Positions 28,329 to 63,946 of a stretch of DNA of 64,000 nucleotides are shown one piece after another. Source of the DNA: Isoetes taiwanensis. Lineage: Eukaryota; Streptophyta; Lycopodiopsida; Isoetales; Isoetaceae. Positions within the stretch are counted from its first letter, which is position 1; each line of letters starts with the position of its first letter. The notes beneath the pieces are model-generated. The model did no database searches, was not told the DNA's origin, and was given only the letters and a program-made list of their open reading frames with translations. The stretch is from the NCBI GenBank assembly GCA_021234155.1, contig JAJEKV010000058.1, forward strand, positions 6,880,992-6,944,991. The letters run 5' to 3'. The translations under genes and the position numbers were made by a program.

Positions 28329-29874
28329 AATCCAACAATCTCCAAAGATGTATTGCTGCACCAAACTCCAAGGGATCCTCTAAATCTTGAGTTTGGCGAT
28401 ACATACTCTCCCCAAACAATCTAGACTACAACATCAATTGCTCCCAATCGAGAAGACCTTGTATAGTTTCAGTACCAACCTTTCTTGGAATGCAAAAGTA
28501 ATCCTTGATGGTAGTCATCTTACTTTGAAAGGTTTTATACACATCTGCCATTGAGCCCTTCCAAACTTGCAGAAAAACAACACCCATAGCATCAAACACA
28601 TCATCTCGTGGAAACCTGGAACGAAGCTCATTGACGAGATTGCGTGATACCTACAAAGTGAGAAGCATCAAGTATATTATGTATACTTTTTTCCCTCACT
28701 AAATGCATAACTTTCACATGCAAATAAGAAATCAAATTCATGCAAAATTGACATAGGGTTCAAAGAAGATTTACTTGTTTCATATGAAGTTTAACTGTCT
28801 CAACCAAGTCTTGAAATTCAGAACTCTTCAGTTCACACTTCCTGAGGTGGCTTCCTCTTCCCCTCCTTGTCCTAAAATTCATGCAGAGAAATTGATCTTT
28901 GACACATATGCATAATCCTAGCTCTCATGTGATCCAACTTGAACCAGTTTGTTCCAAGCAGCAAATTCCTCTTTATGTAGTTCAAAACATGACTTTCCAG
29001 CCAAAGTATCTCATATCAATTTTCTATCTCAACTTGCAAGGATTTTCTAGCTATGGTATACTCAGATAAAGATTTGTCTATCTTGTGAAATCTGTATCAT
29101 ATAGTTTAGCTTCCCCATCAAAGGTTGGATAACAAAGAGTGTAAGCATAGTCTCACAATTTGTCATAAGTCCCATTAGCTCAAATGCCCTTTGTGCCATA
29201 TTTTCATCATCATCATTCAAATAGAATTCACTTGCCATACCAACCAATGATACATACTTCTCACAAAGGCATTGCATAGGTAGATGCAAAGAAATCCACC
29301 TAGTGTTGACATCTTTTAATAACTTATTCCCTTTAGTGATACCACTTGCAAAGTCCCAAAATATTGCCAACCTTTGAGGACTTTTAGAGAAAAAGTTGTA
29401 AGCAGCATGAACTAAGAATTCAACCTTACCAACATTTTGCGAATCAGAAATTGTCTTGTATGCCAAGTTGGTCCTATGATACATGCAATGAAGCACACTG
29501 ATGTATGGTGCTAAGTTTGTTTGTATTCAGACGCCCAATCCTGTCCTCTTTCCTTGCATCACAGAAGCTCCATCAGCTCCAAAACATATTAGTTTCTGAG
29601 CACACTCAATAGGATCCAAAAGAACAACATTAGATAAATGCTTGACAATCACATTGAAGAGTGTCTCCGCAGTAGCATCTCCTGAGAGCTTCTTAATACC
29701 TAAAAAGTAGGAGACATGTTCAAAGTTTACAACATTGTAAAGATGCATTGCAACCCATGAGGTATTATCAATTGTCGTGACTTCATCCATGGATAATGAA
29801 AGAAAAGATGAATTTTGAACAATTAAGCAAAGCTTTAATCTCAATGCATCACTCATGTGCTCATCAAGCATTGG
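28329..29874 (-). pseudogene. hAT transposase (DUF4371/ZNF862-like), split by copia
   Basis: Minus-strand pieces: 29871-29527 (SLSMDEVTTIDNTSWVAMHL, CFGADGASVMQGKRTG, the first catalytic block), 29496-29062 (MYHRTNLAYKTI, DVNTRWISLHLPMQCL), then an intron-like gap and 28640-28335 (FPRDDVFDAMGVVFLQVW, EDPLEFGAAIHLWRLL). The C-terminal dimerisation part lies beyond the copia element at 23580-23812. Role: cut-and-paste transposition. No terminal repeats were recognised. Its N-terminal side fuses directly to the 3' end of the DUF7869 gene near 29870. Confidence 0.75.
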
Positions 29875-29875
29875 C

Positions 29876-32604
29876 AGCAGTCGTTCTCATCCAGTGCACT
29901 TTTAATTGAGTGGGAATTCCATCCTCTCTTGTTACCTCCAGTACTTTAGCTAGCCAGAATGGCCTCCCAGATTCATCATTATCAGCTGGGACAGCTATGA
30001 GCATTCCTTTCTGAATCTCTGAGACTGAACCAGATACTCGAGCAACTTGTTGTGCTGTGCGTCTAGGGCCAGTGTACATGACTCTGTCATCTTCATCTGA
30101 GCTAGCCAATATCTCTACATGTTCCTCTTGATTCTCAACTTGCACAGGGAGGGTTTGCCTAGATGGCCAGTTGAATGTAACTGGTCTTCGACCTTGTAAT
30201 GAAGCTTGCAACATGTCACGTTGCCGAGAAAAAAATTGAGGCCACCATAAAGCATCTGCCTCCCCAAAGTGGTTAGAGCAGGACTGAATACTTGTCTCAA
30301 TACAATCCAATGATTTATTTGAGTCAAATGCTCTTCCCTCCTTTTTACTCTTTGTGATTTCTTTCAAGCTTTTTAGAGGCATTTGCTCTGCAGAGAGCAT
30401 GGAACTAGTATTGGGGATGTTGCGAATGAATTGAATACCTGCTGCTGGCTGCCACTGCAAGGATGTGGCATATTTCTTTCCTTGTAAGATGGCCTTGCCA
30501 TCTACAAGTGAAATTTTGATCTGATGCTGAAATGTAATGTTTCTCAAGGGCTCAATAGCACAGTGACCTAGTTGATCTCTCCGAAAAATCCATTCCTTGA
30601 AATCATAAGTTTCTTCCAATAACTCGATGTCTGGACGAGGATTGTAGGAATCTTGGATGACCTCAATCATGGTGGCGGGGCTTAGAGCTTTTTTCGAGCA
30701 AGGCGTTTAGAGAACCTCTTGAACATCGATCAATTTGGTCGTGTGTATGACCAACAAGCGTGAAACCAATCTTCACCTTCTTGAAGATTTGTTTCTCTAC
30801 TAGCATAGCACGATAAGCAAACAACGCCGATTCTTATTTTCCCTTGTCGTGTTATCTAGTCGAAGATCTGAGCCGGTATATGTTCTAGATTGGAAAGAAG
30901 CTTATTCAATATTGTGATAGTGAGATTTGGATCAGCATGAATGTTTGGATAATTCAAAAATGCCTTGCAAGATAGTTTTCCATTAAATACCATAGCACCA
31001 ACAACATGCAGATGTATGAAATCTTCTTCAGCAGCATCCTTAGGCACATTGACAAAATGTGGTAGGGTGGTCTTCTTCTGGTCCATTCCATCAATAACAA
31101 CTGATATGTAGTTGAGTGGTTGTTCAAAGTGCTTTCTTCCTATGTTTTGTCAATTTTCTCCTTTCCAAAGATTGTTGTTCTCTGTGCTTGTTCAGTTTCT
31201 CCTTCAATGCATCTGAAAGGAAAATATGTTTAGGAAAGAACCTACTTTTAAGTAGAACTAGGCAAGAACACGTCCTGGAAGCTTACTTTTAGTGTGAAGT
31301 GTCCTTGCATTTTGTCTCTGAGCTTTTAATTCAGAGCATGTAGCACAAACAGACATCCTATGCTTTCTAGGAATGGCCACGCGAGAAAACTCTTTTTTCC
31401 AGAGCACAGTAAAGTAAGAGTAGCAGACAAAGCGTTCTCCAGCCTCAACACACATCTCCTTATAATTATCGTAGACTTCTTGTTTCGTGAAATTGTCACT
31501 CAAGTGGTACATAGGGCTATTAGGGAGTTTCTCACAAGACTCCTTAAAGAAACCTTCCATCCAGGAAACACATTGAAGGGCATGAATTCTGGTTATGCCT
31601 CCTGAATGGCGAGTCATTGATGCCCGGATTCTTGTCAAGCCTTTTCTTCAGCGGTCAAGTCGTCTCACGCCTAAAGCATGAATCAATTTGAAGGCCGTTT
31701 TGGGGACGGTGTGGCCACCAGCTGTATAAGTAAACTTCTCACCATCATCTGGCCTAATATTGAAGGCTAAGTAGCCCCTTTGGTCTAGCAGAGTCATTGA
31801 ACTGTAACTATCACGAATCAACCTCAATTCCTTTAGTCCAATCTTAAGCAAACAACGTTGAGAACAACAGTGCTTTGTATGTGTTGCCCGCAAGTGAGCC
31901 TCGTCCATGAGTTTCTTTCTTCTAACAGTTGTACATGCTTTCTTGTGTAAGTTACGTTTAAGATTCTTACTTGCAGGGGCTTTGAATTCGAACAAGGAGT
32001 CTTGTGGCTTTGGTAGGTCCTCGTCTGAGAGATCAACATGAGGTGTTTCTTCGTCTGAGAGATCAACTTGAGGTGTACTTGTAGATGCTGATAGGTTTGG
32101 TGTGTGCAAGTCCTGGGGGGAGGTGCTTTCCCTCTCTCTGGGAAAAAGTAATCGAGGTTGGTGACGTAGTTGACCAGCTCCTGAAGTGTCGTAGAACACA
32201 GGAGTTGCGTGTCGCTGACTGCTTCCACTTGTTGTAGTATCATTTAGCGAAATTGATGGAGTTGGCGTGATTTGCCTCCGGGGATTTAGCCTACGGTGGA
32301 CTAAGGGCGACGTACTAAACTGAAGTGGAGGAGGTAGTCTGACCTCTCTAGCCTGAGGTGGGGTAAAACGCATTGGTGGGGGCAGACGACGTTCAGGAGC
32401 AGGGTGTGGTGGAGTAAGTTGAACTGGTGGTGGAAGCCGAGGTGGTCGTGCTGGAGTAAACTCAACAGAGCTGGGGGTTTGAATATCAGAGGCAGAATTT
32501 CCGAGGCTACTTTCAGGTGTCAGTTGAGGGGGTGTGAATGTCATTGCAGGAGGAAGCCTGCGAACAGGACTTGGAGGCTCTGCAGTTCTTTTTTCTCGAG
32601 CCAT
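29876..32604 (-). pseudogene. DUF7869-like transposase of the palindrome transposon, broken
   Basis: Minus strand, start ATG 32604 (MAREKRT). Residues ~1-200 are Pro-rich with repeated RLPPPxxFTPP blocks and acidic patches. Then come KNLKRNLHKKACTTVRRKK, a Cys/His region (KHCCSQRC), LKIGLKELRLIRDSY and MEGFFKESCEKLPNSPMYHL (31550-31490). RKHRMSVCATCSELKAQRQN precedes an intron (~31282-31215; GTAAGC..CAG). The catalytic-like part has VVIDGMDQKKTTLPHF (~31090), LHVVGAM, LDNTTRENKNR (~30850) and IGFTLVGHTHDQID (~30740). The C-terminus ends WLAKVLEVTREDG and LKVHW (29900). DGMDQ, LDN.TRENKNR and VGHTHxxID are hallmarks I know from DUF7869-type proteins, probably RNase H-like transposases. Lesions: TGA at ~31648 and frameshifts near 31127, 30868 and 30735. 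It is transcribed divergently from the ParB-methylase gene. Confidence 0.75.
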
Positions 32605-32627
32605 ACTCAGAAAGGTAGCGTCACACT

Positions 32628-32786
32628 GTATAAATTTATACGACAGAAGAGCAGATGGTAAAAGTTTACACAGGGATGGTATAAATTTATACAGAGAAGG
32701 CAAACTTGTAGCTGCAGACTGTATAAATTTATACAGAGATGGTATAAATTTATACGGAGGAGGAAGACACGGCACAAATTTATACG
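32628..32786 (-). repeat. Palindrome P array in the transposase leader
   Basis: Four intact GTATAAATTTATAC copies (32628, 32679, 32721, 32742) and two degenerate ones (~32657, ~32772) lie just upstream of MAREKRT. The minus-strand frame is open through them to 32844, where each copy reads YKFIP or YKFIQ, so an N-terminally extended product is possible. Confidence 0.85.
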
Positions 32787-32928
32787 AAAACTCACAGACA
32801 CTTGTATTGGAATCTTTATGGAGAAACGCTATACGAAACGGCACTTAGCAGGGGTACTTAAGCCCGGCGCCGGCCACCCTATTTTTCATATACGCAGCTC
32901 GGAGTCGAAGGCGCTCGCGGTCCGCCTT

Positions 32929-32934
32929 ATATAC
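32929..32934 (+). promoter_or_regulatory. TATA box of the ParB-methylase gene in a divergent promoter
   Basis: TATATA lies 54 bp before ATG 32983, within GAGTCGAAGGCGCTCG..CTTATATACCCCCTCTTATTTGCTC. The same block recurs at 43881-43935 before the related element's palindrome array. The ~380 bp between the two start codons must serve both genes. Confidence 0.55.
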
Positions 32935-33056
32935 CCCCTCTTATTTGCTCTCCGGAACCTCTATACTCTAGTCCATACGGTCATGGCCACGTAAGTCTAC
33001 TTTCCGTACTGTTTTAGTTTCTCTTTGGTTTTAATCTGTTAGAGTGTAAGCCCCAC

Positions 33057-33358
33057 GGTATAAATTTATACCGAGATGGCTCTGGATCGGTATAAATTTA
33101 TACGCCCCGTGCTCGAGCGGTATAAATTTATACCGCTGAAGACGGGCTTATAAACGAGACTGTTCGGCACGAAGCGGTATAAATTTATACCGCCCTCAAC
33201 ACATTCGATTGTTCGGGCGAAGTATAAATTTATACGCTTCGCTCGCAGCGGTATAAATTTATCGCCCCTGCTCGAGCGGTATAAATTTATACCGCTCAGC
33301 ACTAGCGTGTAAATTTATACCGCAAGTGCTCGAAGCGAGTATAAATTTATACCGCTCG
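33057..33358. repeat. Palindrome P array in intron 1
   Basis: Nine copies, seven intact, at 33057, 33091, 33118, 33175, 33220, 33249 (partial), 33277, 33307 (partial) and 33338. Several extend to the 18-bp perfect palindrome CGGTATAAATTTATACCG, some further (GAGCGG...CCGCTC). Spacers of ~15-40 bp are GC-richer and unrelated to each other except for repeated GCTCGA. Confidence 0.95.
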
Positions 33359-33970
33359 AGAACCATTTTAAATTCTTGACGCCTAGTGCTCAAATCTAAT
33401 GGTCCCGAACCTTAATATTTTGGTAATATTGTTGTGTTTTCAGCTTAAATGACACAAATGAAGTGTTAATTTAGTGTGGATTTTATGCCCTTTCATCCTC
33501 TTTTTCTACTGTTTTTGTGTTTCAAAAATTCGAAAAAGGTACAGTTTCTTTTGTAAAAATGGTTTTTTTTGCGCATTACAGTGGCCCTAAGATCAAGTTT
33601 GTACTCGGAGGGTCATCATCAAAGGGTGCACCACCAGAGCCACAGACTTATGAACTAAAGGATCAGACTTGGTACGTCCACAGGGGCGCAAGAGAGAGCA
33701 AACCCACTGAGGCGTACCTTTACTTGTGCAAACAATCAGGGAAGGGCAAGTTCAAGTCCGATGATTATTACCCTGCTGGCGAAATTATAAGCCTTGTTGC
33801 TACAGAGAACGATGATGAAGTTCTAATGCAGTGCAACCATGACAAGGGTCCCGTCCACTATGTTCTGAATACTAGAATGCTTAGAATTAGCATGTGCAAG
33901 CCTAAAGACGTACACGATTACATTGCGGACAATTACAAGAGCGGCTTCGTAAGTTATTCTTACATGCTTT

Positions 33971-33988
33971 CCGTATAAATTTATACCG
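33971..33988. repeat. Palindrome P in intron 2
   Basis: A single copy, CCGTATAAATTTATACCG, makes up a quarter of the 70-bp intron 33949-34018. Confidence 0.9.
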
Positions 33989-35038
33989 TCATTCTCTTAA
34001 CTTAACCCTGCATTACAGGACGTAGTAGAAATTTTGATGTCAGTAGTGCTGTGCGACGAAAAAGTGTTGGTCAAGGGTCTATGGTACCCCCGTACTATCG
34101 AAGAGGAAGTAGTAGAGGAAGAGGAAGAGGAAGAGGAGGAACCAGTCGTCACAAAGGGAAAGGGTAGGAAGTATTCCCTGGTAGAAGATACACAGCCTCC
34201 TACCAAGAAAAAGTCTAGAATCACAAAGTCCTTGACTATAGAGGAGTCAGCAGAAGCTCTTCAGAAGGCTCCAGGAGCAGATATCGTTGTGAAGCCCGCA
34301 GATAAGTCGAGTGCTATTCTCAAGCGGGTTAATGAAACCAAACTGCTCAAGCAGACCATTTCTTTGACACTAAGCACTATTAAGAGGCCACCAAAAAATG
34401 AAGATGGGGTCAGAGTGCTTCAGGTCCGAAAGTTGTACGCGGCACATGTGGCTATCCTTAAGCAAAGAATGAGAAGGAATCCTCATGCCCATGTGTCGCC
34501 ACTAGTTGTGATGGTGGACAGAAGTCAGTGCAACCAATTAAAAGACTACAAAAAGGCAGATTTTGAAGATTACACCTATTATGTTCTTGGAGGCACACAT
34601 AGTTATAAAGCAAGAAAAGAACTTTCAAAAGAAGAAAGCCGTAATGAAGTCCGGAAAGAGCGTGGAAGCACATATCTATGTGGGGGTGACAGACGAAGAG
34701 GCAAAAGTCATTGCCGTGAGTCACAATCTCGACAATGACTTCAGACTAAAGATGAGCCTAATAGACAAGATTCGCTTCATGCACCGAGAGTACGTGGATT
34801 TCAAACAAGTGCATGGAGACGACTTCAAAAAACAAAAGAACAAGCTTCAAGAGCTTCGAGAAGCCTGTGTGACAGAGTGTTGCCTCAGTTATGATTCGGA
34901 TAAGAAACCCATTATGGCTGTCAAACAATACGATAACTACTTTCAGCTAGCTTTCAGAGATGGTCAAGTAAGTAAAAGCTTCAATTCAATCTTTTGTAGT
35001 ATGTTTGGCGTAGTTAGAAGCTTGTAATAGCCTAGTGA

Positions 35039-35148
35039 CGGTATAAATTTATATAGTAGGCGCGGTATAAATTTATCGCGAGTGCACGGCGCTGATCGAG
35101 CACCGGTATAAATTTATCTGTGACTTGCACCGTATAAATTTATACCGT
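35039..35148. repeat. Palindrome P array in intron 3
   Basis: Four copies, one intact (35130) and three with a damaged right arm. In copy B (54501-54618) the corresponding copies are intact. Confidence 0.9.
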
Positions 35149-36201
35149 GTTGAGTCGCCGTGCCCATCCTCTTACGCCATTCAACACTAAACTTCGTTTG
35201 AACATTTACAGGTGTGGGATCTTCAAGAGAGAATTTTTTGTATGTTCGAAGATGGGGAGCTCAAAGAACAAGCTAGGGACGCAGGATAGAAACCAAAGAA
35301 AGGTGGTGAATCAAAACAAAAAAATATGAGCATTGTACCACGGGACGATTCTGAGGTCTTAAAAGCAAAGAAATATTTGTTCGCCTGTTGGAAAAAGTAG
35401 TTGCCAAAGAATTCACATTAGACGAGATGGCCAAGGAAGCTAAAACGTAAGCCTCACTTGCTATGCCAAGTTTTTTTCTACCTTTTTTTGTCTTACAATA
35501 CTTTTCCCTCTGCAGTCAGAAAGACATTGTCACTTGCCAGGCCGAGTTAATGAAGCAGCTCAACCTAGAAGACTGGGAGGAGTGCAAACTTTTGTACCCA
35601 AGTTGCACCACAGACAGTATCATCAGAGAGCACGCAGTTAACTCCAGTGGCTGGGTAAGTTTTGCAAACAATATGTTATGTGTTTGTGCCTTTGTCTTAC
35701 ATTACTCTTCTGAGAACAAGAAGAAGGGGCTACCAAGCTGGATTTTTTAAACCTGGTTCGTAGGGCCAAAGAAGAGAGGCAAAGGCTTAAGGCAATTGAA
35801 GGGGGTAGAGAGGTCGCCACTTCCGGTTTTATTTGTACATATGAGAGATTTACCACATTTGGTCAGGACGTCCAGTACAGGGTTGTTGAGGGTGATTGTA
35901 CAAGGCTGGGGACTCTTTTAGACAAGCAAAATTTTACATTATACATTGCAGATATTCCTTATGGATTTAAAATAAAGGATAGCGCTTTTGATGAGGAGGC
36001 TTTCACTCACGTGCAAATCCGGTCTTTCCTGGATGGCCTAAAAAGAAGTCACGACATCCGAAAGCGGAGGGTCATCATTTTTCATTCCGACCTTCGGGGC
36101 GATGTCGGTGCTTAAACCTATGGGGAGGTGATGCATGCCGGCTTCGAAAACTGCGTTTGGTAAGCTTCACAATTAACGCTTTTTGTTTTACGGTAACTCC
36201 A

Positions 36202-36365
36202 CTGTATAAATTTATACCACATCTGTCTTAAGGTTTAAATTTTAAAGGCTGGAACAACCGCGGTATAAATTTATCTGACAAGGCAATGTCGTTTCAAATT
36301 TATCTGACTTTGCCGCCGTGGTATAAATTTATCTGACAAGGCAACCGTCATTATAAGTTTATACC
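36202..36365. repeat. Palindrome P array in intron 6
   Basis: Five full or partial copies (36204, 36262, 36296, 36321, 36353) lie between donor 36160 and acceptor 36437. The short introns 4 and 5 have none. Confidence 0.85.
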
Positions 36366-37118
36366 GCCACACTCTTGGGCTAACTTATTTTCCTTGTTTT
36401 CTTTTTACTAATTTCTAATTGCTGTTTTGCTTGGCAGGCTTAAAACAAACGTCAAGGGTCATGGTGGTGGTCCGTGCTTAGTGAGCTGTTTCGAGCATTT
36501 TCATATAGGTTTTTACAGCGCGGACACCAAAAAAACCATGATTCATTTTAACACGCAGAATGAGAAGACTTCTCCCCGCAATGCATTTCGGTTCAGTAAA
36601 TTGTTTCAGAAATTAAAGAGACCCACTGGCGACAAACTGTTTTGTGGTGTCCCATTATCGAAGCCCCAACGACTTATTAATAATTTGGTACGAGTGGTTT
36701 TTCATACAGAGATCGGATCTTAGATGCCTTTTCTGGATCAGGCACCACAGCAGTTTGCACCCTTAAAGCAGGCCGCAATGTCGTCTCAGTCGACATAGAC
36801 CCAGATAAAGTAAGTTTCATCAGGACCAGGATAAGCTCTTGTGAATCTTTTCCTGATGAAAATGAGGAACTGGGAGCAAAGAACGGTGCTAGCGATGCTA
36901 AGGGCACTTACACAGAAATCCAGCCTCCACTTACAGGAAGAAGAGATGAGGAGGTGGAGTTTGTCGACTTAGAGCCTGTGGTGCCCGAGCTAGAGAAACA
37001 GCCTGTACCTGTGCCATTGGAATCAGAAGCAGGCGTCTCTGCTATCATACCCTCACAAGAGTCATATCCTAAAGGGTACGAGAGTCCTGTGGACTGGGAA
37101 GAACCACCTCCTCCACCA

Positions 37119-37137
37119 GTTGTATAAATTTATACAG
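37119..37137. repeat. Palindrome P at the ParB-methylase stop codon
   Basis: TGTATAAATTTATACA, a 16-bp palindrome; its TAA (37123-37125) ends the methylase frame. Confidence 0.9.
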
Positions 37138-37545
37138 TCAAGATTACAAACTAACTTTCATTGTAAACTATGTGCTAAGAAATATAACATATTTTGATGA
37201 TGATTTTTAATCTGAAAGCTTTGTCTCTTCAACAGTGCTTAATTAGAGCAACTCTTTCTTGCTCCATGATTTCACACTCTTTGTCTTCCCTATGTTTAAT
37301 TTTCTTAGTACTTATATTAAGCTTGCAAAAAGACAAACTGTATTTCCTTCTATTTTCAGCAATAAATACTTATTCAGCTTTTAAATTTAATGTCACCCTC
37401 CTCAAAACAAGCTTTTTTTTTTTTTTGCCCTCTTTAAAAAATGAAAAGGCTTCAAAAATGTTGGGGTATTTCGAATGCTAATTACTTAACAATCTATTTT
37501 GCTCCCTATTTTGTCTGTTTTTTTCAAGTTTCCAATTTTTATAAA

Positions 37546-37598
37546 GGAATCTTTCAAACGCACTTCTTAAATAAGTGCGTTTCATTTTAAACCTTGTT
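37546..37598 (-). repeat. Right terminal repeat of the ParB-methylase transposon
   Basis: GGAATCTTTCAAACGCACTT ... TTTTAAACCTTGTT is identical over ~53 bp to the right end of the related element (45552-45604) and inverted relative to that element's left end (43436). It includes a small hairpin GCACTTCTTAAATAAGTGC. The matching left end of this larger element was not found before 29.9 kb, where hAT sequence adjoins. Confidence 0.7.
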
Positions 37599-37784
37599 TA
37601 CATTGGTTCTGAATACATGGTCTCAGGAGTTTACATGAACACATAGCAGGATAAAACATATGCTTCAATCCCATGAGACATAAATGCAGCAAGCCAGCCG
37701 TGCACTAACTAACTTCTGCTACTAACAGCTATCTTCCATTATAAGCAAAATCAAAGTTGTTAGTTCAACGTGCTGCCTTTTTTG

Positions 37785-37976
37785 TTATAATTTCAAATCT
37801 ACTCCTAAAGTACTTCTATGTACAATAAACTTCTCCTTGATCAGAGGTTTAGTCAGCAGGTCAGCAGGCATTTCCTCTGGTGGAAGATGTTCCATAACAA
37901 TAGTTTCATCCACTACTTTCTCCCGTGTGAAAGATTGGATCTCTTTGTATTTGTATGTATCCAATCTCTGATCCAA
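37785..37976 (-). pseudogene. Copia RNase H C-terminal fragment
   Basis: The minus-strand frame reads TREKVVDETIVMEHLPPEEM then PADLLTKPLIKEKF, the end of a Ty1/copia RNase H. No other part of that element adjoins. Repeated in copy B. Confidence 0.6.
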
Positions 37977-38601
37977 TTTCGTAACTAGACTGTCTCTCTT
38001 AGTGACCAGCGTTTTGTGAAGAATTACAAAAACCCCTATCTTGAGATTGTTGCTTTAAAATTTCAACAGGAGCAACTTTGTATTTAGTGGAATCTGTGCC
38101 TTTGGTGTCGAAATTTGAATAATAAAAAGACCTAGCATGAAGCAATCAATTATCAGATTTCTCCATAAAATTAACCCTTAGAGCTTGTGCTTAATGCAAA
38201 ATGAAAGGGTTAAAATCATGCCATAGTTGCATCTTCACAACTTCCGATTTGGGATTAGTGGTTAACTTTCCTTGTGGCTTCAAAACCTTCTAATTTTGTT
38301 AACCTAGAGTTGTAGATGGAAAGGCTTCAGAAAATGCGCCTAGAGTTGTAGGATGGAAAGGCTTGAAAAGAGTATTATTGAAGAAACATACCTATTAATT
38401 TTTAAGGAACCGCTGGGAGAACTTGTGATAGGTTCTTTGGGAAGAACTTTCTTTATGCGGATCAATATCCTCGGACTTCACCGTTCCACTTTTCCCTGGA
38501 GAAGGTACTGATTTTTAAACATCCCAAACCCGATTGGACGGTGATCCAATGTATGCGATTGATCTGAGATGTAGCCATGCATTACGCCTTTCGCCCTAAC
38601 T

Positions 38602-39084
38602 TTGATCTTGCTATATGTTGATGACATGGTCTTCACGGAAGATGCAGCACAGTTAATTGCCCATAGTAAGGAGATGCTAGCACAACAGTTTGAAATCACT
38701 GAACCCTTTATGCAGCATCCCAAGCAATCACAGTGGCAAGCAGCTAAAAGAGTTTCTCATTACCTAAAGGGTACTTTTACAGATGCTCTTTATTACAGTT
38801 CAACTGATAGTTGTACTCTCAATCTTTTCTCTGATTCAGATATGACCACTAGTGATGTTGAATGGAGAAAGTCACGTACAGGATATGTTTCTTTCTTAGC
38901 TGATAATGCTATCACATGGCACTCTAAAAAGCAGTCCACTGTTAGTATCAGTACCTCAGAGGTTGAACTCAAAGCTTTTATGCATAGCTCTAATATCATG
39001 TCCTCCAGCTACTTTGTTAGGCTGAGCAGAATTATCAAAGTTAGCCCTTTCTTTGTTTTCCTTTCTTGGTGTACAGATATGTAA
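38602..39084 (+). pseudogene. Copia RT-RNase H fragment with internal deletion
   Basis: The RT active site LLYVDDMVF and AQQFEIT are joined directly to the RNase H side (MQHPKQSQWQAAKRVSHYLK, SDMTTSDVEWRKSRTGYVSF, TWHSKKQSTVSISTSEVELK), skipping ~150 residues normally between. It is in one open frame and in opposite orientation to the 37785 fragment, so it derives from a different element. Confidence 0.8.
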
Positions 39085-40473
39085 GTAATATTTCTTTGAT
39101 TTTGCTGTTTTCATATGTTGACATGTTCAGATGCTAACTCGATATTAGATTAGGTATGCTTTTGCAAAGGTAAGCTCCTTAGAGATGATGCAGGTAAAGA
39201 ATTTGAGCAGAAGGCATCGGATGCTATGAAGACATATTGTAGGGATGTCATATTTAAGACAAAATCAAAGAAAGGCAAAGAACCATTGAATGTAAGTATC
39301 TTTGTACATTTTTATTATTTCAACCTAGTATTCGTACATTATTCTTATACTTGTACTTTTTTGACATTCAGGATATATGCTACGTTGATGATTCTAATGA
39401 GGTAAGAAAAGAAGCTTTATTATTAATGTTTACTTACAAAAGTTCTAACCATATCCTTTACTTAATAGGATAAGAATGAAAGGACAATGACCATGCAGGC
39501 AATGCAAATGAAGAGGGTCATGGGGATGAACCAACAAATAGAGAGGATTGAGTTGCTTATATTGATTATTTTGTTGACATGAAAATTAGTATTTTGCCTT
39601 GAAACATTTTCTATGGGCATTTGTTATGTTGGAAATTCTACTTAATGAAACTTCGTACTTTAGCTTTTTGATATCTAATTTGGAAAAATAAATTATTTGT
39701 TATCAAAGAAAAAACATTTACCTAGATGTTTATCCTTTTGAAACAAGTCAAAATGCACACATTGTCCCAAATTAGGTATTACCTAGACACATAACTTGTC
39801 ACAAATTGGTTGTCTTAGGGTAGATGGGTAGATGTAATATAGCTATCTTGTTGTCCCTAGCTTGCCATGTTGATGATGCTATGTTGTTAGTATAGGCTTT
39901 ATTTATTTATCATAATGTGGTCACAACACTTATATTCTTTAGACACAAAGCGGTAACAAAATTTCTTACTAGTTGCCTTATTATGGATAGGATTATAGCT
40001 GCTATTTTGTCACTATTTTGCCATGATGATGATGTTATCTTTGTTAGTATAGGCTTTACTTATCTATCACAATGTGATTATAACACTAGCTATTTTTTTA
40101 GACACAAAATTTCTTATCGACTTCTTGTAGATGCATTCTAGCTACTACTTTGTCGCTAGCTTGCTATAAGGTTGATGTAATGTTGTTCATAAGGGCTTTC
40201 ATTTATTTATCACAATGTTGATAAAATCTTGTCACAAGTTTGACATTTTCTACATTGCCATGTAGTTTTAAATTGATTTTGTGTCAATATTATGACATAA
40301 ATTGAGGCCACAAGCTTGACACAACATTCGACGCTATTGTGGCATGTTTGTGACAAATGATCACGACAAGTATAGCGTCAAGGCTGTGACAATAACTGGG
40401 TTTTGACAAGTTCTCCTTGTGTCAAGAAATTTGACGTTACACTAGACACTATAGGTACCCTTCTCTTGTAGTG
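39085..40473. mobile_element. CACTA-type transposon end with subterminal repeats
   Basis: The segment ends TTCTCTTGTAGTG at 40473, i.e. CACTACAAGAGAA on the minus strand, a CACTA/EnSpm terminus. Inside are three diverged ~150-bp repeats (GATGATGCTATGTTGTTAG... at ~39868, ~40021 and ~40168) and many TTGACA/TGTCAA boxes near the end, as in CACTA subterminal regions. Exon-like patches with GT/AG borders at ~39180-39290 (GKEFEQKASDAMKTYC) and 39470-39560 may be remnants of its gene. The other terminus was not found. Confidence 0.6.
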
Positions 40474-42590
40474 CCTCCTGGTTGCTCTAGTCAGTTTGGG
40501 GAGCCAATAGCGGTGGTGGGATGGTGGCACCCTAAATTTTGGTGCTTCGCCATTTTATTTCAATAAAACCATTAAGGTATGCTTTGCCCTAATTGGTTAC
40601 CCAATTATACTAGTTCCCAAGGCAACCTTAACAACTAGATACTTATCGGTCGTACCCCTAGTCCAAATTGCCAAAGTGCACCTCGCAATTCAACTAGGCC
40701 ACGATGCGACCATAAAGGTTCCATGGCAAGCATTACCATCGAAATATTAAATTATCGCTCATTAGCATGCATGCAAATTCTAATAATGGTGCTGCAATTT
40801 ATTCTAGGCTAAAGCAGGAAATGCTTGGTTAGGAAATTTTGAGGAATTGTAACTGCGTGTAGATCTGAAAATTCACACTCTGAGTTTAGAAATAGCAAAA
40901 ACTTTACCTACTAAAAATAATGATTTTACTAGTTACTTTTGGTAGGAATGGAGTGCGGTATATATTTGGTAGGCTGGGCTAGATCCAACAGGAAATGCAC
41001 CGATTGTACTAAAAAAATTTCCCAAACCAAGGTGGAATGTGGTCTGCATATCTAGCATAATAACGGGGGGTTGCTTTTGATATTTTTATACTGTTCTTCA
41101 TATGGTTTTCCTATGATTTGGTTACTGTATTTATTTGGATGTACTAATTAGTATTTCTAGAGCGCACTCTTTCTGCGCCATTGATATTGAAAGAGGAAAA
41201 ATCTCTTTTAGGCATTGGGTTTTTTGCTTTTTGGGTTTTATAGATATCTATTTATTGGGTTGTTTTTCATAAGCTTTGAAATTTAAGATCAACACCGCAT
41301 GCAGGGCTCGAGCAGCTCTTCTATAGGGTTCCAAACCCACAGTAGGGTTTCATTCGAATGAAACTATGGTTCTATTTGGAGGCATAGAGCAAGAGGAGCA
41401 AAGCCAGTCCCTATTATTGCACTACCCTGCTGAGAATGAATCTGTTGAGAACATGAGGTAAGAATAAAGAACGCATGATTTGTTTTGCGATGTTGGCGAG
41501 TTATTAACGAAGCATCAAACCCCCATTAGAGGCGGTTGGGGTCTCAAAAGCGACCTCCTATCAGCCATTCCCGTCATATTTCCGCTCCTTTTTCCCATGC
41601 CACCTAGAATACCAAACTCTCATAATTATAGATTTGCTTGGAATATTCTTAGGAATAAGGGGATTGCACATTCATGGGCCATATGTATTTAATTACATTT
41701 GGTTGTCGGACGGTGATGCAACACGTGGCGCTTCTAAAATGCCACTTGCATTATAGCATACCAGGCAACTCATGGCGGTGTCTCTTGGTTTGTCGGATAC
41801 CAAAAGCGTGCATCGCGCCTTCTACATTTCAAAATTGGAATGTGTAGGTTGAAGCTTTGTATCGGATCAGACTTTCATTTCGGTGGCTGCAAGCTGCGCT
41901 TAACCGATCTTCACTTCATCCTATCTACAGGCTTCCGCCCCTACATTCGAAATTTGAATTTGCTTAATGTATAAAAGCATGGATTGTAGGAGAATGGACT
42001 TTTCGATTTCCATATGCGTTGCAAATTTCAAAAAAGCGAGGTTAATGCGGACATTAGGCTCACCGCGAAGCCCGAATTGTGTTGGGGCATAAAAATTGTA
42101 CACCTTCATTTGGCCCGATCGCGATCCCCTTGATATGGAAGTTGCTGTTGTCAAATTAAACTTAAACACAAGTGAGGTCGGCACTTACATTGGTTTTCTC
42201 GAGGAGGGTTTGGAGTGTGTTTTTAAATCCCAATTATCGTCATAGTGTGACGTAGCATCTTGGTATTAAATAGTATGTTAAATTCGAATTATATGGGTGT
42301 TCATTTTTCAGGTTAAACTCAAATCATATAGGTTTAGGAATAAGGTTAAAAAGGAAGATATTGGATATTTAGGAATAAGGTTAAAAAAGGAAGATATTGG
42401 ATATGGCTCAAATTTGAGACATGCACATAATGGCATGTAATGATGGTTGATAGGATTTGGAATTGAATCATTCCCTACGATTTTCCGTCTAATCCAGCCT
42501 ATATCTATTCCAGCCTAGATTAAGCCTATTCTCCCCAATCTCCGCCCAATCTTGGCTAGATCCTTAGCCCAATTTAGCTAGTCCATCGCC
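40474..42590. other. Non-coding, with a repeated exon-like block
   Basis: No complete gene. 41315-41462 (AGTAGGGTTTCAT..., ending in splice-donor-like GAGGTAAG) recurs diverged at 48078-48205. A 35-bp unit is doubled at ~42335-42405 (TTAGGAATAAGGTTAAAAA). The rest is AT-rich. Confidence 0.5.
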
Positions 42591-42962
42591 ATGAAGAGAT
42601 CAGCTACGGAAGAGCTAGGAGGTGTCCTCCAAGAGGAGCCTATTATGGCTGGAAGAGGTGTTCCCTTCGCAGTTCCCTCCGCAGCCCACGGTTCTTGCTT
42701 TGAATGCCTCTGATTCCTCGATTCCTCGATAACTTTGGCGAGGAATGGAGAATGAGGAATCGAGGAGGAAATTCGGGCGAGGAGTTCATCACGAGGTGTT
42801 CTTGAAGAATTTTGGATAGGAGATTCTTGAGAGAATGAGTGGTCTCTGCAGAAGGAGAAGAAGAAGAAGATGATGAAGAAGATGAAGAAGTTGAAGGCGA
42901 ATCCGGTGACTCTGAGGAGCTCATGGTACATGCTAAATGGTACATGCATGTTATTTCTTATT
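42591..42962 (+). pseudogene. Small acidic protein gene, copy A (disrupted)
   Basis: Counterpart of the open frame 62081-62491 but with several frame changes. All lie where copy B has CAG, CTG or CCG, so the disruption may be a sequencing artefact. See the copy B entry for the protein. Confidence 0.5.
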
Positions 42963-43982
42963 TTTTGTTTTTTGGATGGTGAAGCGGATGAATGAAATTT
43001 GTTAGAGGCAGAGCACCTCTTTTTTTTTTTTTTTTTTTTGTTCTTAGCCTCGGCTTAGCCTCCGGCTTGCCTCCGGCTTAGCCTCCGGCTTCTTACCATA
43101 TGATTTGCAAGCCTCCGGGCTTTTTGTTGTGAATAGTTGAAGCCTCAGGGCATTTAAATTTACAAAATGATGTTACGATGTAAAGCCATCTGACCATAAA
43201 AAATTTTGAATGTAAAAAGTTTTTACTTCTAATTCCATTTGAATACCTAACTTGTTTTTTTCTTGTACATGTGTTCTTGCACATGTGTTTTTTTTTATCT
43301 TGTGTTATGGTGTTTGTGTTTAGATACCTCTAATACAAGAAGTCTTTGACTACTTTTTTCTATGATTCCTTTAAAAAATCTATTCTTTGTTTAAATTATA
43401 GCAAAAAAATGAGTCTTGAAACTCTTTAAGTAGTAAACAAAGTTTAAAATGAAACGCACTAATTTGCTATTAACGCACTTTAAAAGGAATCTTTGAAAGA
43501 TTCCCTAAAATCCCCCCAAAAAGGTCCCTTTTCGTGGTATATTTGTGACAAATGTGACAATTTGAAAATTTTAGGCATCAATTTTGAGGGGGGGTGTGAA
43601 CTTAGCTTTCATTCAAAATTGTTTGATATCCCTTTTTGGCCCCCTAGTTTGGTTTGAGAAATAGTAATATTTTCAAAAACTAAACAAAATAGACATTGAA
43701 AAAAACAGCAAGCACACTAAAGTGCCAAAAAGGTATTTTATTCAAAGTTTTCAAAATCAATATAAAACTATGAACAAAACTGTAAAAAATGCAACACATT
43801 TGACATTGCCTCATCGAAGCAAACATTTTCACATGAAAGTATGCCTCATTGAACAAACTTACACTTTGAAGTGTAAGTTGGAGTCGAAGACGCTCGCTCT
43901 TCATCTTATATACTTGCTCTTATTTGCTCATTCGTCTTGCTATAGACTGATGTATACCGCGATGACAATAAATTTCTAGATG

Positions 43983-44395
43983 GCATAAATTTATACTACA
44001 ATAGATAGTGTTGTGTGGATATAACATGCCAGAGAGTTCGCATGGTATAAATTTATACATAAGTGGACTCGGCGGTATAAATTTATCTGCGAGAGGACTC
44101 GAGCGGTATAAATTTATACCGCGAGAGCTCTCTCGATTCACTGCGAGAGCTCTCACGGTATAAATTTATACCGTGAGAGCTCCCTCGTTATACCGCGAGA
44201 GCTCTCTCGGTATAAATTTATCTGCATGACGACTCTCGGTATAAATTTATACCGCAGACAACCTTCAAACAACCAATTTATATACATATATGTGTATATA
44301 TATATAATATATACACATACTTACATATATATATCCGACAAGAAAAGAGAACTCTTGCGGTATAAATCTATACGGAGAAACGGTATAAATTTATA
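43983..44395. repeat. Palindrome P array of the short element
   Basis: About nine copies, five intact in copy A. Between them lie second palindromes of the type CGAGAGCTCTC, so two different palindromes alternate. Copy B (63466-63860) has six intact and otherwise matches. Confidence 0.9.
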
Positions 44396-44462
44396 CCGAA
44401 TTACATATATATATAAGACTTTTTATATATATATATGTATATATATATATCGATCAGAGGCA
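44278..44462. repeat. TA-rich microsatellite
   Basis: TATATACATATATGTG-type runs flank the last P palindromes. Lengths differ slightly between copies A and B, as expected for simple repeats. Confidence 0.8.
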
Positions 44463-44749
44463 AAATATATATCGTGTAAAATCTTTTGGGGTCTTTCTTG
44501 CTCGCCAAAGGGTTTGCAACCTGAAAACTACTAAAGTAACACACATAAGGGATAATTTTACACACTTTTCTTGGTTTTTAGTCTAAAAAGTTCTAAAAAC
44601 GGTTCTAAAATTTCGAGCTTGTAATGCAATGTTAGAGCATAAAGTAGTCGAATCATGTTGTTATTTCTACTTTTTTTTCTCTATATACATGCGAACTTCA
44701 CTTGGGTAGCTCAAAAAATTGCTACTAAAGGCAAAAAGAACTCCAAAAT

Positions 44750-44980
44750 GTTATGGTGACACGGTGTTTGGCGAAAAGGAAACTACATGGTTTATCGGAG
44801 GGGTGCGAGGAGTAGAAACCCCTCGAAGTTTACCTATTTATTTGCAAAATATATAGGAAAGGGTAAAGGCGGAGACGAATATTTCCTTTGCCCAGAGAAA
44901 TGTGCATGGTGCCCTTACTACTGAGATGGCGTAATTGTGATGAATATGCTCAACATTACTAAAGAGATTGACTATCTTTG
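44750..44980 (+). pseudogene. Decayed exon 2 of the ParB-methylase family
   Basis: One frame from 44772 reads RKGNYMVYRRGARSRNPSKF then TYLFAKYIGKGKGGDEYF, aligning with DQTWYVHRGARESKPTEAYL and CKQSGKGKFKSDDYY of exon 2 (33660-33770). After a TGA, MNMLNITKEIDYL aligns with NTRMLRISMCKPKDVHDYI. This shows the short element comes from a methylase-carrying ancestor. No further exons follow before the right end. Confidence 0.7.
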
Positions 44981-45719
44981 AGCATCACCATGTTGTAGAA
45001 AGATATGTGCATTCAAAATACATCTCGAGAATAAAAAGGAGGGCATGTAATCACGGGGCTTCATTACTTCAACTTTTGTATCCTCGGTACAAATTTATCT
45101 TGCATCATCAACTAAAACTTCAACTTAGCTACAAGATATCGTGGATGTATTGGCATTTATAATACTATGTGATGCAAAAACAATGGTTTGTCATTCAAAG
45201 TTTGTTCAAGCTGCCTCCCAATGTGTTTTAAGGTCCATTAGGATGTTTAGCAAAAATGGTTGTGAAATAACAAATTTCTTGTCTTCTAAAAGCGACTAAT
45301 ATAAAAGTTTTCGAGGGGACAAGGTACAAAAGCATCTAATTTCTTCATGAATTTGCCCCCCATAGTAAATCTTTGAATTTCATTGTAGTTCTTTCCCCCT
45401 CTAAAATGGGATTTTTTTTGTTTTGTGTTTTTCCTTAATACTAAGTCTTCTTAAAATGTCTGTTTTCACGAGCAATTTTATAAATCTTTGGACTAATGGT
45501 AATAAAAGGGCCCTTTTTAGAGGGATTTTAGAATTTTATAAATTTTCAAAAGGAATCTTTCAAACGCACTTCTTAAATAAGTGCGTTTCATTTTAAACCT
45601 TGTTAGTAGAAGAACTCTTTGACTAGTTATCCATTTGATGACCATTTTTTAAGAAAATATGATATGTGACATTCTTATATGCAAACATTCAAAAAATTTA
45701 TGAACATTGAAGGTCAAAG

Positions 45720-53805: not shown

Positions 53806-54500
53806 GCTCAAGCAGACCATTTCTTTGACACTAAGCACTATTAAGAGGCCACCAAAAAATGAAGATGGGGTCAGAGTGCTTCAGGTCCGAAAGTTGTACA
53901 CGGCACATGTGGCTATCCTTAAGCAAAGAATGAGAAGGAATCCTCATGCCCATGTGTCGCCACTAGTTGTGATGGTGGACAGAAGTCAGTGCAACCAATT
54001 AAAAGACTACAAAAAGGCAGATTTTGAAGATTACACCTATTATGTTCTTGGAGGCACACATAGTTATAAAGCAAGAAAAGAACTTTCAAAAGAAGAAAGC
54101 CGTAATGAAGTCTGAAAGAGCGTGGAAGCACATATCTATGTGGGGTGATGACGAAGAGGCAAAAGTCATTGCCGTGAGTCACAATCTCGACAATGACTTC
54201 GGACTAAAGATGAGCCTAATAGACAAGATTAAGCTTCATGCACCGAGAGTACGTGGATTTTCAAACAAGTGCATGGAGACGACTTCAAAACAAAAGAACA
54301 AGCTTCAAGAGCTTCGAGAAGCCCTGTGTGATGATCTTTGCCTTTCGAGTTATGATTGGGATAAGAAACCCATTATGGTCGTCAAACAATACGATAACTA
54401 CTTTCGCCTAGCTTTCGTGAGATGGTCAAGTAAGTAAAAGCTTCAATTCAATCTTTTGTAGTATGTTTGGCGTAGTTAGAAGCTTGTAATAGCCTAGTGA

Positions 54501-54618
54501 CGGTATAAATTTATACCGTGGGCACGGTATAAATTTATACCGCGGTGCACGGCCTTGCACGACACGGTATAAATTTATACCTGTAAATTTATGCACCGGC
54601 AACCGTATAAATTTATAC
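54501..54618. repeat. Palindrome P array, copy B intron 3
   Basis: Four intact copies (54501, 54525, 54563, 54603), three of which are damaged in copy A, plus a partial one near 54582. Confidence 0.95.
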
Positions 54619-55684
54619 CGTGTTGAGTCGCCGTGCCCATCCTCTTACGCCATTCAACACTAAACTTCGTTTGAACATTTACAGGTGTGGGATCTTCAAG
54701 AGAGAATTTTTTGTATGTTCGAAGATGGGGAGCTCAAAGAACAAGCTAGGGACGCAGGATAGAAACCAAAGAAAGGTGGTGAATCAAAACAAAAAAATAT
54801 GAGCATTGTACCCGGACGCTAGCTGATTCTGGTCTTAAAAGCAAAGAAATATTTGTTACTTTGTTGGAAAAAGTAGTTGCCAAAGAATTCACATTAGACG
54901 AGATGGCCAAGGAAGCTAAAACGTAAGCCTCACTTGCTATGCCAAGTTTTTTTCTACCTTTTTTTGTCTTACAATACTTTTCCCTCTGCAGTCAGAAAGA
55001 CATTGTCACTTGCCAGGCCGAGTTAATGAAGCAGCTCAACCTAGAAGACTGGGAGGAGTGCAAACTTTTGTACCCAAGTTGCACCACAGACAGTATCATC
55101 AGAGAGCACGCAGTTAACTTCAGTGGCTGGGTAAGTTTTGCAAACAATATGTTATGTGTTTGTGCCTTTGTCTTACATTACTCTTCTGTAACAAGAAGAA
55201 GGGGCTACCAACCGGATTTTTAAACCCGGGTTCGTGAGGGCCAAAGAAGAGAGGCAAAGGCTTAAGGCAATTGAACAGTGGTAGAGAGGTCGCCACTTCA
55301 GCTTTGATCGTACATATATGAGAGATTTACCACATTTGGTCGACGCCCAAAGATGGGGTTGTTGAGGGTGATTGTACAAGGCTGGGGACTCTTTTAGACA
55401 AGCAAAATTTTACATTATGCATTGCAGATATTCCTTATGGATTTAAAATAAAGGATAGCGCTTTTGATGAGGAGGCTTTCACTCACGTGCAAGTCCGGTC
55501 TTTCCTGGATGGCCTAAAAGAAGTCACGACACATCCAAAACCGGAGGGTCATCATTTTCATTCCGACCTTCGCATCGACGATGTCGGTGCTTAAACCTAT
55601 GGGAGCGGGCGTAACGCCGCGCCGGCAAAAGCTAGCGTTTGGTAAGCTTCACAATTAACGCTTTTTGTTTTACGGTAACTCCAC

Positions 55685-55848
55685 TGTATAAATTTATACC
55701 ACATCTGTCTTAAGGTTTAAATTTTAAAGGCTGGAACAACCGCGGTATAAATTTATACAGCAAGGCAATGTCTGTTCAAATTTATACGGCTTGCCGCCGT
55801 GGTATAAATTTATACAAAGAAGGCAACCGTCAGATAAGTTTATACCGC
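55685..55848. repeat. Palindrome P array, copy B intron 6
   Basis: Three intact (55686, 55743, 55800) and two partial copies; another intact one ends the gene at 56602-56619. Confidence 0.9.
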
Positions 55849-57026
55849 CACACTACTTGGGCTAACTTATTTTTCCTTGTTTTCTTTTTACTAATTTCTA
55901 ATTCCGCTTTTGCTTGGCGTGCTTAAAACAAACGTCAAGGGTCATGGTGGTGGTCCGTGCTTAGTGAGTCTGTTTCGAGCATTTTCATATAGGTTTTACA
56001 GTAGCGGACACCAAAAAAACCATGATTCATTTTAACACGCAGAATGAGAAGACTTCTCCCTGCAATGCATTTCAGTTCCCAGCTGTTCCGCAGAAATTAA
56101 GAGACCCACGGCGACAAGTTGGGTGTGGTGTCCCATTATCGAAGCCGCAATGCACTTATTAATAATTTGGTACGGTGGTTTTCGCCTCGAGACCGGATCT
56201 TAGATGCCTTTTCCGGATCGTGCACCACGCCAGCCTTTGCACCCTTAAAGCAGAGCCGCAATGTCGCCTCAAATCGACATAGACCCGTGATAAAGTAAGT
56301 TTCATCAGGACCAGGATAAGCTCTTGTGAATCTTTTCCTGATGAAAATGAGGAACTGGGAGCAAAGAACGGTGCTAGCGATGCTAAGGGCACTTACACAG
56401 AAATCCAGCCTCCACTTACAGGAAGAAGAGATGAGGAGGTGGAGTTTGTCGACTTAGAGCCTGTGGTGCCCGAGCTAGAGAAACAAACTGCACTGCAAGC
56501 CATTGGAATCGAAGCGCGCCTCGCTATCATACCCTCACAAGAGTCATATCCTAAGGGGTACGAGAGTCCTGTGGACTGGGAAGAACCACCTCCTCCACCA
56601 GTTGTATAAATTTATACAGTCAAGATTACAAACTAACTTTCATTGTAAACTATGTGCTAAGAAATATAACATATTTTGATGATGATTTTTAATCTGAAAG
56701 CTTTGTCTCTTCAACAGTGCTTAATTAGAGCAACTCTTTCTTGCTCCATGATTTCACACTCTTTGTCTTCCCTATGTTTAATTTTCTTAGTACTTATATT
56801 AAGCTTGCAAAAAGACAAACTGTATTTCCTTCTATTTTCAGCAATAAATACTTATTCAGCTTTTAAATTTAATGTCACCCTCCTCAAAACAAGCTTTTTT
56901 TTTTTTTGCCCTCTTTAAAAAATGAAAAGGCTTCAAAAATGTTGGGGTATTTCGAATGCTAATTACTTAACAATCTATTTTGCTCCCTATTTTGTCTGTT
57001 TTTTTCAAGTTTCCAATTTTTATAAA

Positions 57027-57079
57027 GGAATCTTTCAAACGCACTTCTTAAATAAGTGCGTTTCATTTTAAACCTTGTT
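57027..57079 (-). repeat. Right terminal repeat, copy B
   Basis: Identical to 37546-37598. Confidence 0.7.
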
Positions 57080-57265
57080 TACATTGGTTCTGAATACATG
57101 GTCTCAGGAGTTTACATGAACACATAGCAGGATAAAACATATGCTTCAATCCCATGAGACATAAATGCAGCAAGCCAGCCGTGCACTAACTAACTTCTGC
57201 TACTAACAGCTATCTTCCATTATAAGCAAAATCAAAGTTGTTAGTTCAACGTGCTGCCTTTTTTG

Positions 57266-57457
57266 TTATAATTTCAAATCTACTCCTAAAGTACTTCTAT
57301 GTACAATAAACTTCTCCTTGATCAGAGGTTTAGTCAGCAGGTCAGCAGGCATTTCCTCTGGTGGAAGATGTTCCATAACAATAGTTTCATCCACTACTTT
57401 CTCCCGTGTGAAAGATTGGATCTCTTTGTATTTGTATGTATCCAATCTCTGATCCAA
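57266..57457 (-). pseudogene. Copia RNase H fragment, copy B
   Basis: Protein identical to the 37785-37976 fragment. Confidence 0.6.
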
Positions 57458-58080
57458 TTTCGTAACTAGACTGTCTCTCTTAGTGACCAGCGTTTTGTGA
57501 AGAATTACAAAAACCCCTATCTTGAGATTGTTGCTTTAAAATTTCAACAGGAGCAACTTTGTATTTAGTGGAATCTGTGCCTTTGGTGTCAGGCTGAATC
57601 GTAAAAGACCTAGCATGAAGCAATCAATTATCAGATTTCTCCATAAAATTAACCCTTAGAGCTTGTGCTTAATGCAAAATGAAAGGGTTAAAATCATGCC
57701 ATAGTTGCATCTTCACAACTTCCGATTTGGGATTAGTGGTTAACTTTCCTTGTGGCTTCAAAACCTTCTAATTTTGTTAACCTAGAGTTGTAGATGGAAA
57801 GGCTTCAAAAAATGCGCCTAGAGTTGTAGGATGGAAAGGCTTCAGAAAGAGTATTATTGAAGAAACATACCTATTAATTTTTAAGGAACTGCCCGGAGAA
57901 CTTGTGATAGGTTGCTGGGGAAGAACTTTACTGTCTGGATCAATATCCTCAGACTTCACCGTTCCACTTTTCCCTGGAGAAGGTACTGATTTTTTAAACA
58001 TCCCAAACCCTGATTCAGACAGCTGATCCAATGTATGCAGATTGATACAGATGTAGCCATGCATTCTGCTCAGCCTAACT

Positions 58081-62491: not shown

Positions 62492-62919
62492 GGCAGAGCA
62501 CCTCTTTTTTTTTTTTTTTTTCCTTGTTCTTAGCCTCCAGCTTAGCCTCCAGCTTGCCTCCAGCTTAGCCTCCAGCTTCTTACCATATGACTGCAAGCCT
62601 CTGGGCTTTTTTGTTGTGAATAGTTGAAGCCTCCGGGCATTTAAATTTACAAAATGATGTTCTGATGTAAAGCCATACGGCCATAAAAAATTTTGAATGT
62701 AAAAAGTTTTTACTTCTAATTCCATTTGAATACCTAACTTGTTTTTTTACTGTACATGTGTTACTGCACATGTGTTTTTTTACTGTACTGTGTTATGGTG
62801 TTTGTGTTTAGATACCTCTAATACAAGAAGTCTTTGACTACTTTTCACAACAGATTCCTTTAAAAATCTATTGCTGTTTAAATTATAGCAAAAATGAGTC
62901 TTGAAACTCTTTAAGTAGT

Positions 62920-63913: not shown

Positions 63914-63946
<33 letters not shown>

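Follow-up and report, generated by a model that had tools for sequence, protein, structure and literature searches.

A DUF7869 transposon family in Isoetes taiwanensis carrying a predicted DNA methylase with a ParB-like fold and lineage-specific palindrome arrays

Introduction

Why would a transposon of a land plant carry a gene for a DNA methylase, and on which DNA would the enzyme act? This question is raised by a two-gene element located at positions 29876..37598 of a 64,000-nucleotide stretch of the genome of the lycophyte Isoetes taiwanensis (contig JAJEKV010000058.1; the whole stretch is hereafter called the window), in which a DUF7869 transposase gene on the minus strand and a ParB-like/methylase gene on the plus strand are arranged head to head. 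An initial annotation, made from the sequence alone, had proposed that the element may use the methylase to mark or protect its own DNA. Here, we describe this element as a member of a cut-and-paste transposon family and report that its non-coding DNA contains arrays of a palindrome, the centre of which differs between the lineages of the family in agreement with the encoded proteins. These lineage-specific palindromes, which were absent from the initial annotation, provide a candidate target for self-marking by the methylase, a role that we regard as plausible. The genome-wide searches covered an assembly of 1,658,258,908 bases in 1,110 contigs.

The two genes of the element

The start codons of the two genes (at 32604 on the minus strand and at 32983 on the plus strand) are 378 bp apart, in good agreement with the roughly 380 bp given initially, and enclose the intergenic region 32605..32982. 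The transposase gene (29876..32604, minus strand) contains an inferred single intron (31213-31286) and a DUF7869 domain that is split by frame breaks (30464..31041), and the DGMDQ, LDNTTRENKNR and VGHTHDQID blocks noted previously are all present on the minus strand. The read-through protein matches positions 2-191 of the 192 positions of DUF7869 (PF25273) with an E-value of 1.6e-30 and a score of 106.6 bits against a cut-off of 26; the separate frame pieces each score just under the cut-off. A transposase is expected to have an RNase H-like DDE catalytic fold. Acidic residues are invariant in an alignment of eight DUF7869 sequences, and the predicted structural model is poor (predicted local distance difference test score, pLDDT, 38.7). 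A profile search detected 9,901 DUF7869 candidates in the genome; all 150 candidates that were scored exceeded the cut-off, and 128 of these matches, counted by hand, contain no internal stop.

The plus gene (32983..37128) consists of seven exons (32983-32990, 33582-33948, 34019-34967, 35212-35446, 35516-35654, about 35714-36159 and about 36439-37128). All of its introns have GT-AG borders except for the unclean acceptor of intron 5, and the seven-exon structure proposed initially could be resolved. The gene encodes, in order, an unclassified N-terminal domain in exon 2 (33582..33948), a region in exon 3 with a predicted ParB/sulfiredoxin-like fold (34301..34967, with one frame break) and a beta-order N6_N4 methylase. 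The protein matches Pfam N6_N4_Mtase (E-value, 6.6e-10) and a PHROG DNA methyltransferase family (2.2e-14), and weaker sequence matches of the methylase half are to the MboIIA and RsrI methylases. Motif IV (DIPYG, 35951..35965) precedes motif I (DAFSGSGTT, 36723..36749), which is the order found in beta-class amino-methylases. Judged from these features, the C-terminal half is a beta-order amino-methyltransferase, as first annotated, and is predicted to write N6-methyladenine (6mA) or N4-methylcytosine (4mC).

The ParB-like block of the initial annotation could be retained as a predicted fold and not as a sequence family, because no ParB family of Pfam matched the plus-gene protein at E-values up to 1; we therefore refer to it as a ParB-like fold and not as ParB. 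A structural model of the exon corresponding to exon 3, built with five sequences that represent the A, A' and B lineages (defined below; mean pLDDT, 59.6, with much of the N-terminal 140 residues at 58-85), found its best matches among solved structures in Noc (7ol9; E-value, 3.2e-4), PadC, ParB and sulfiredoxin, and the viral models matching the fold included ParB-type proteins and a phage DNA methylase. This modest model suggests that exon 3 adopts a fold of the ParB/sulfiredoxin superfamily. The exon 2 domain has no relatives in Pfam or among PDB sequences; a BAH-like appearance, noticed by eye, is unsupported by any Pfam family or PDB sequence. No relatives of the methylase were detected in viral contigs. 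A tblastn search of phages with the methylase returned 23 records, all with <60% identity and none covering 80% of the query; among the best 20 of these, the two records of McKinley, which was deposited in duplicate, cover 26% and the others cover 8-11%, at the methylase end.

Since the published Isoetes taiwanensis assembly was derived from non-axenic plants (PMC8566536), bacterial contamination or an assembly artefact had to be considered as the source of such a gene. The spliceosomal-type introns, the dispersal of sites and DUF7869 candidates in their thousands, the deletion derivatives and the target duplications described below all argue against this explanation. Bacterial contamination was rejected in view of the introns and of the presence of copies on large contigs, and we regard the probability of this explanation as a whole as negligible.

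Complete copies, terminal repeats and derivatives

The right limit of the window element given in the initial annotation, 37598, is the exact end of a terminal inverted repeat (37543..37598, plus strand). The left limit, 29876, is not the terminus of the element: no left terminal repeat is present there with up to three mismatches, and the transposase gene is truncated, lacking its 3' end by comparison with a complete copy, L014. L014 (the element of L006, refetched) is 8,601 bp in length and contains both genes head to head, both terminal repeats and the 4-bp target duplication ACCC. Whether family members carry the two genes together between common terminal repeats had been set beforehand as a test of the annotation, and this copy does so.

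Nine regions of 9 kb, each surrounding a genomic copy of the palindrome described in the next section, were taken from the first places listed. Both genes are present head to head in three of these (L005, L006 and L008; tblastn E-values up to 1e-5), with the methylase gene of L008 recognised by its N-terminal exon alone, and L012 contains the transposase gene only. The remaining five contain neither gene, four of them having both terminal repeats and one a single end; the gene-less derivatives retain the palindrome array. The window itself contains such a deletion derivative (43436..45604; 2.17 kb), with both terminal repeats, the 4-bp duplication AGTA and a palindrome array at 43984-44395. 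A perfect 4-bp target duplication flanks five of the six two-ended elements (ACCC, ATAG, AAAT, TTGA and AGTA among L007, L009, L013, L014 and the window derivative), and L010 is without one. The family is best explained as a cut-and-paste DNA transposon of about 8.6 kb with inverted repeats and a 4-bp target duplication. A target duplication of this length is also a feature of Sola transposons, although 4 bp alone does not place the family in the Sola superfamily.

The window copy is frame-broken, with stops and shifts. The window also contains a 10.2-kb near-duplicate (53806-64000) of 34345-44502, 95.5% alike, which contains a second, near-identical copy of the 3' portion of the methylase gene, extending as far as its right terminal repeat (53806..57079, plus strand). 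Among 200 clusters of differences between these 10-kb copies, 145 touch a CHG trinucleotide (H being A, C or T) against 29.7 expected, and 132 touch CG against 25.5 expected; the corresponding values for the control trinucleotides are 60 against 63 (AAG/CTT) and 43 against 23 (GTC/GAC). Nanopore reads, supplemented by short reads and optical maps, underlie the Isoetes taiwanensis assembly (PMC8566536), and the CHG-centred differences look like nanopore miscalls at methylated CHG and not like divergence. Because the differences are concentrated at these trinucleotides, many of the frame breaks in the window copy are probably base-calling errors.

Palindrome arrays of lineage A

The window contains 50 sites of the 12-bp palindrome TATAAATTTATA (up to one mismatch) against 0.74 expected, and 49 of these belong to the element, to its deletion derivative or to the 10.2-kb duplicate. 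In the element, 22 of the 23 sites are located in the intergenic region or in introns, and the remaining one spans the stop codon of the methylase gene. Four sites lie in the intergenic region, nine in intron 1 (33059..33351; up to one mismatch), four in intron 3 (35042..35144) and four in intron 6 (36205..36363). L014 contains 26 sites in corresponding places, as compared by tblastn coordinates and splice sites. Genome-wide, the 16-mer GGTATAAATTTATACC is present in 7,218 exact copies; about 1-2 are expected at a GC content of 37-40%, the range assumed for all genome expectations given here, and the reversed-pattern control has none.

The spacings between site centres cluster at 20-21, 28-32, 40-42, 50-53 and 59-65 bp. 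For 83 unique spacers, the best period is about 10.4 bp, close to the helical repeat of DNA, with a resultant of 0.55, and the resultant is 0.52 with 43 spacers once the 27-35 bp class is left out. The spacers are diverse in sequence, and some are themselves repeated.

Four lineages and four palindromes

Lineages were defined on the best 30 of the 150 scored DUF7869 matches, which are not a random sample. Twenty-five of these, together with the window element, belong to lineage A, two to A', two to B and one to C, and the members of the other lineages are 58-73% identical to A in the regions compared. Each lineage has its own palindrome (TATAAATTTATA in A, TATGAATTCATA in A', TATTCCGGAATA in B and TATGCGCGCATA in C), all of which share the frame TAT-N6-ATA and occupy comparable non-coding places. 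Exact 12-mers upstream number 15 of TATAAATTTATA in one A locus, 5 of TATGAATTCATA in one A' locus, 2 and 3 of TATTCCGGAATA, plus variants, in two B loci and 6 of TATGCGCGCATA in one C locus. Five further 900-bp upstream pieces (L055-L059), picked for differing profile coordinates, contain the B motif (L055 and L058), the C motif (L059), the A motif (L057) or none of them (L056). By their N-terminal exons, L055 and L058 belong to B (80 and 64% identity to L052) and L057 belongs to A.

When typed separately, protein and motif agree in six A elements (window, L005, L014, L017, L054 and L057), one A' element, five B elements (L016, L051, L052, L055 and L058) and one C element. With overlapping loci left out, motif and lineage cross in only two of the loci compared: the A' locus, which has one A site, and L016, where an A element contains a nested B element. 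The nested B element has four B sites, and its transposase is 81% identical to that of L042 (lineage B) against 32-45% to those of A, A' and C. It is a second, diverged two-gene element (3421-6565 of L016) with its own palindrome. In L005, the lineage-A transposase frame runs into the coding sequence of the nested B element at about 8420-8660.

The B motif is also abundant, with 3,720 genome copies of GTATTCCGGAATAC against 6-7 expected and none of the reversed control. In 50 places listed, 11 of the 23 spacings under 130 bp are 42 bp. Many B sites in L051, L052 and L055 read TCCAGA or TCTGGA for TCCGGA, as would result from decay at methylated CpG or from miscalled bases.

A methylase partner gene was detected by tblastn in seven of the ten upstream pieces, reaching exon 3 or beyond in L050, L051, L054 and L057 and comprising the N-terminal exon only in L052, L055 and L058. 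In L053, a related N-terminal exon is revealed only by alignment (23% identity to lineage A). No partner was found by tblastn in L056 and L059, where the 900-bp length could miss it. Between lineages, identity is 59-73% in the transposase region, 48-64% in the ParB region and 19-23% in exon 2, the most divergent part of the gene, compared with 50-61% for exon 2 within lineage A. As the fastest-changing part, exon 2 is, by this correlation, a candidate reader of the sites.

These comparisons bear on two alternative explanations of the arrays. In the first, the palindromes would serve a promoter or a host factor (as TATA boxes or as sites for a transcription factor of the host) or would simply be satellite-like duplications; the methylase would then be a passenger without a self-target. 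TATAAA occurs on both strands of TATAAATTTATA and some spacers are repeated, as this explanation would predict; however, the TATTCCGGAATA and TATGCGCGCATA motifs have the same frame and comparable places without a TATA box, and the spacers are diverse. We consider this explanation very improbable. A reading of the palindrome as a TATA box was rejected, given that frame and location are comparably preserved in the three other lineages, although the motifs of two of these contain no TATAAA-like sequence. In the second, the palindromes would be bound by the DUF7869 transposase, or by its assembly, for synapsis or autoregulation, with the methylase modulating the access of the transposase, as methylation does for other transposons. 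The motif tracks the lineage of the transposase as much as that of the methylase, in keeping with such a role, but the arrays of the complete copy lie at least 0.5 kb, and mostly kilobases, from either end, and the majority of sites are located in introns of the methylase gene. This explanation appears rather unlikely to us.

A possible role for the methylase

Bacterial ParB loads on a 16-bp palindrome and spreads. The combination of a ParB-like fold, a methylase and a palindrome that tracks the lineage suggests self-targeted marking, and from the observed anatomy and co-variation we infer binding, marking and benefit as follows. The methylase would load cooperatively on the palindromes of its own lineage, as ParB does on the 16-bp parS, and would then spread or stay anchored at the arrays. 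There it would place 6mA (or 4mC) on the DNA of the element, and this mark would label the DNA as self and keep the element expressible or mobilisable despite host silencing, as VANC does for VANDAL elements. We judge the chances of this anti-silencing reading to be slightly better than even. A more specific form, in which a constant TAT...ATA frame, a lineage-specific 6-bp centre and arrays near helical phase constitute an address code that is read by the lineage's own ParB-like methylase, the writer of an adenine or 4mC mark, is put forward tentatively, as a possibility that we would not expect to hold in full.

Several observations weigh against self-targeted marking or reduce the support for it. 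The catalytic consensus of beta-class N6/N4 enzymes is (D/N/S)PP(Y/F/W), and the second residue of motif IV is I and not P in all four sequences (DIPY in the window, L014 and L050; DIPC in L051). The fold matches rest on a modest model with TM-scores (template modelling scores) of about 0.27-0.36 by query, and low scores of this kind support the fold class and not its detail. The palindromes could instead be read by the transposase, or by the unclassified domain of the N-terminal exon. Because the arrays are homologous to one another and tandem duplication accounts for part of their growth, their spacing is descriptive and does not constitute independent evidence; the best-fitting period for lineage B, 8.4 bp, is an alias of 42. 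Lineages A' and C each rest on a single locus, and L056, an upstream piece of a DUF7869 match, has no TAT-N6-ATA palindrome. The retention of the array by gene-less derivatives fits self-targeted marking, but the palindrome itself had served to retrieve four of the five, and derivatives without an array could therefore not have been seen. Finally, the CHG-centred assembly differences suggest that the copies are cytosine-methylated by the host, i.e. unprotected in the sequenced tissue. L056 (1-900) contains 12 GCATGC palindromes, most of which lie within a pair of repeated blocks, and may represent another lineage or a separate repeat.

The same anatomy would also be expected if the methylase acted on the sites to set the timing of transposition (after replication, for instance) or to shield the DNA from a nuclease, rather than to evade silencing, and protection from restriction enzymes has been discussed for other transposon methyltransferases (PMC3627910). 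No nuclease gene was recognised by eye in the open reading frames of L014, for which no profile search was made, and by sequence nothing else separates this explanation from the anti-silencing reading. We consider it quite unlikely.

If the more specific address-code form holds, a land plant would contain an amino-methylation-based system of self/non-self distinction and anti-silencing, in which new lineages arise by a change of the palindrome centre. The family offers a concrete enzyme and host and thousands of predicted target sites for study, with built-in controls, because marking at the sites of a given lineage is expected only while the enzyme of that lineage is active. A further asset would be a set of palindromic DNA-recognition pairs whose divergence took place in a single genome.

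Other features of the window

A long array of diverged repeats of the AATCTTAGGGAATCTAGGGG type with 31-bp spacing is present at 50900-52650. The open reading frames at 29062-29886, which appeared hAT-like by eye, gave no Pfam match.

Comparison with known systems

The novelty claimed in the initial annotation does not hold as stated, since ParB-methylases on algal transposons have been published (PMC12477816), and elements of this kind are therefore not categorically new. In Sola1-1_Ec32 of Ectocarpus, a protein with a ParB-like domain and a 4mC/6mA methyltransferase is encoded on the strand opposite to the Sola1 transposase, and self-marking was also proposed there; similar green and red algal proteins are cited in the same work (Iyer 2011 and Petroll 2025, in PMC12477816). 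The present family shares this combination within a DNA transposon. It differs from Sola1-1_Ec32, by description and not by sequence comparison, in that the latter is a 21.5-kb element of a brown alga, and in that neither an array of palindromic targets nor a site code particular to each lineage is mentioned in the consulted part of its description (PMC12477816). The DUF7869 setting, the lycophyte host and the site code were not found in print: a literature search, with most subscription papers outside its reach, returned no published plant case or palindromic target.

Fungal DNA transposons with TET/JBP genes also carry a DNA-modifying enzyme, but it is a dioxygenase and is combined with other transposases (PMC12730594). 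The resemblance to bacterial ParB/Noc and to phage ParB-methylase fusions lies in the fold matches to Noc, PadC and ParB and in the phage DNA methylase among the viral fold matches. Unlike these proteins, the present gene has introns, an extra N-terminal exon, arrayed targets and no ParB profile match.

VANDAL elements belong to the MULE superfamily, and VANC is not known to have a methylase domain. In Arabidopsis, short motifs that differ between related VANDAL elements were shown by experiment to have accumulated in introns and upstream regions, and VANC proteins demonstrate that silencing can be escaped by plant transposons with the aid of such motifs (PMC5735166). As in VANC, the protein considered here is a second protein encoded by the element, and lineage-specific motifs are present in the element's own non-coding DNA; VANC, in contrast, exerts its effect through a loss of cytosine methylation, and its motifs are not of the TAT-N6-ATA palindromic frame (PMC5735166). 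The Isoetes family would add to VANC a second example of the same principle, unrelated to the first.

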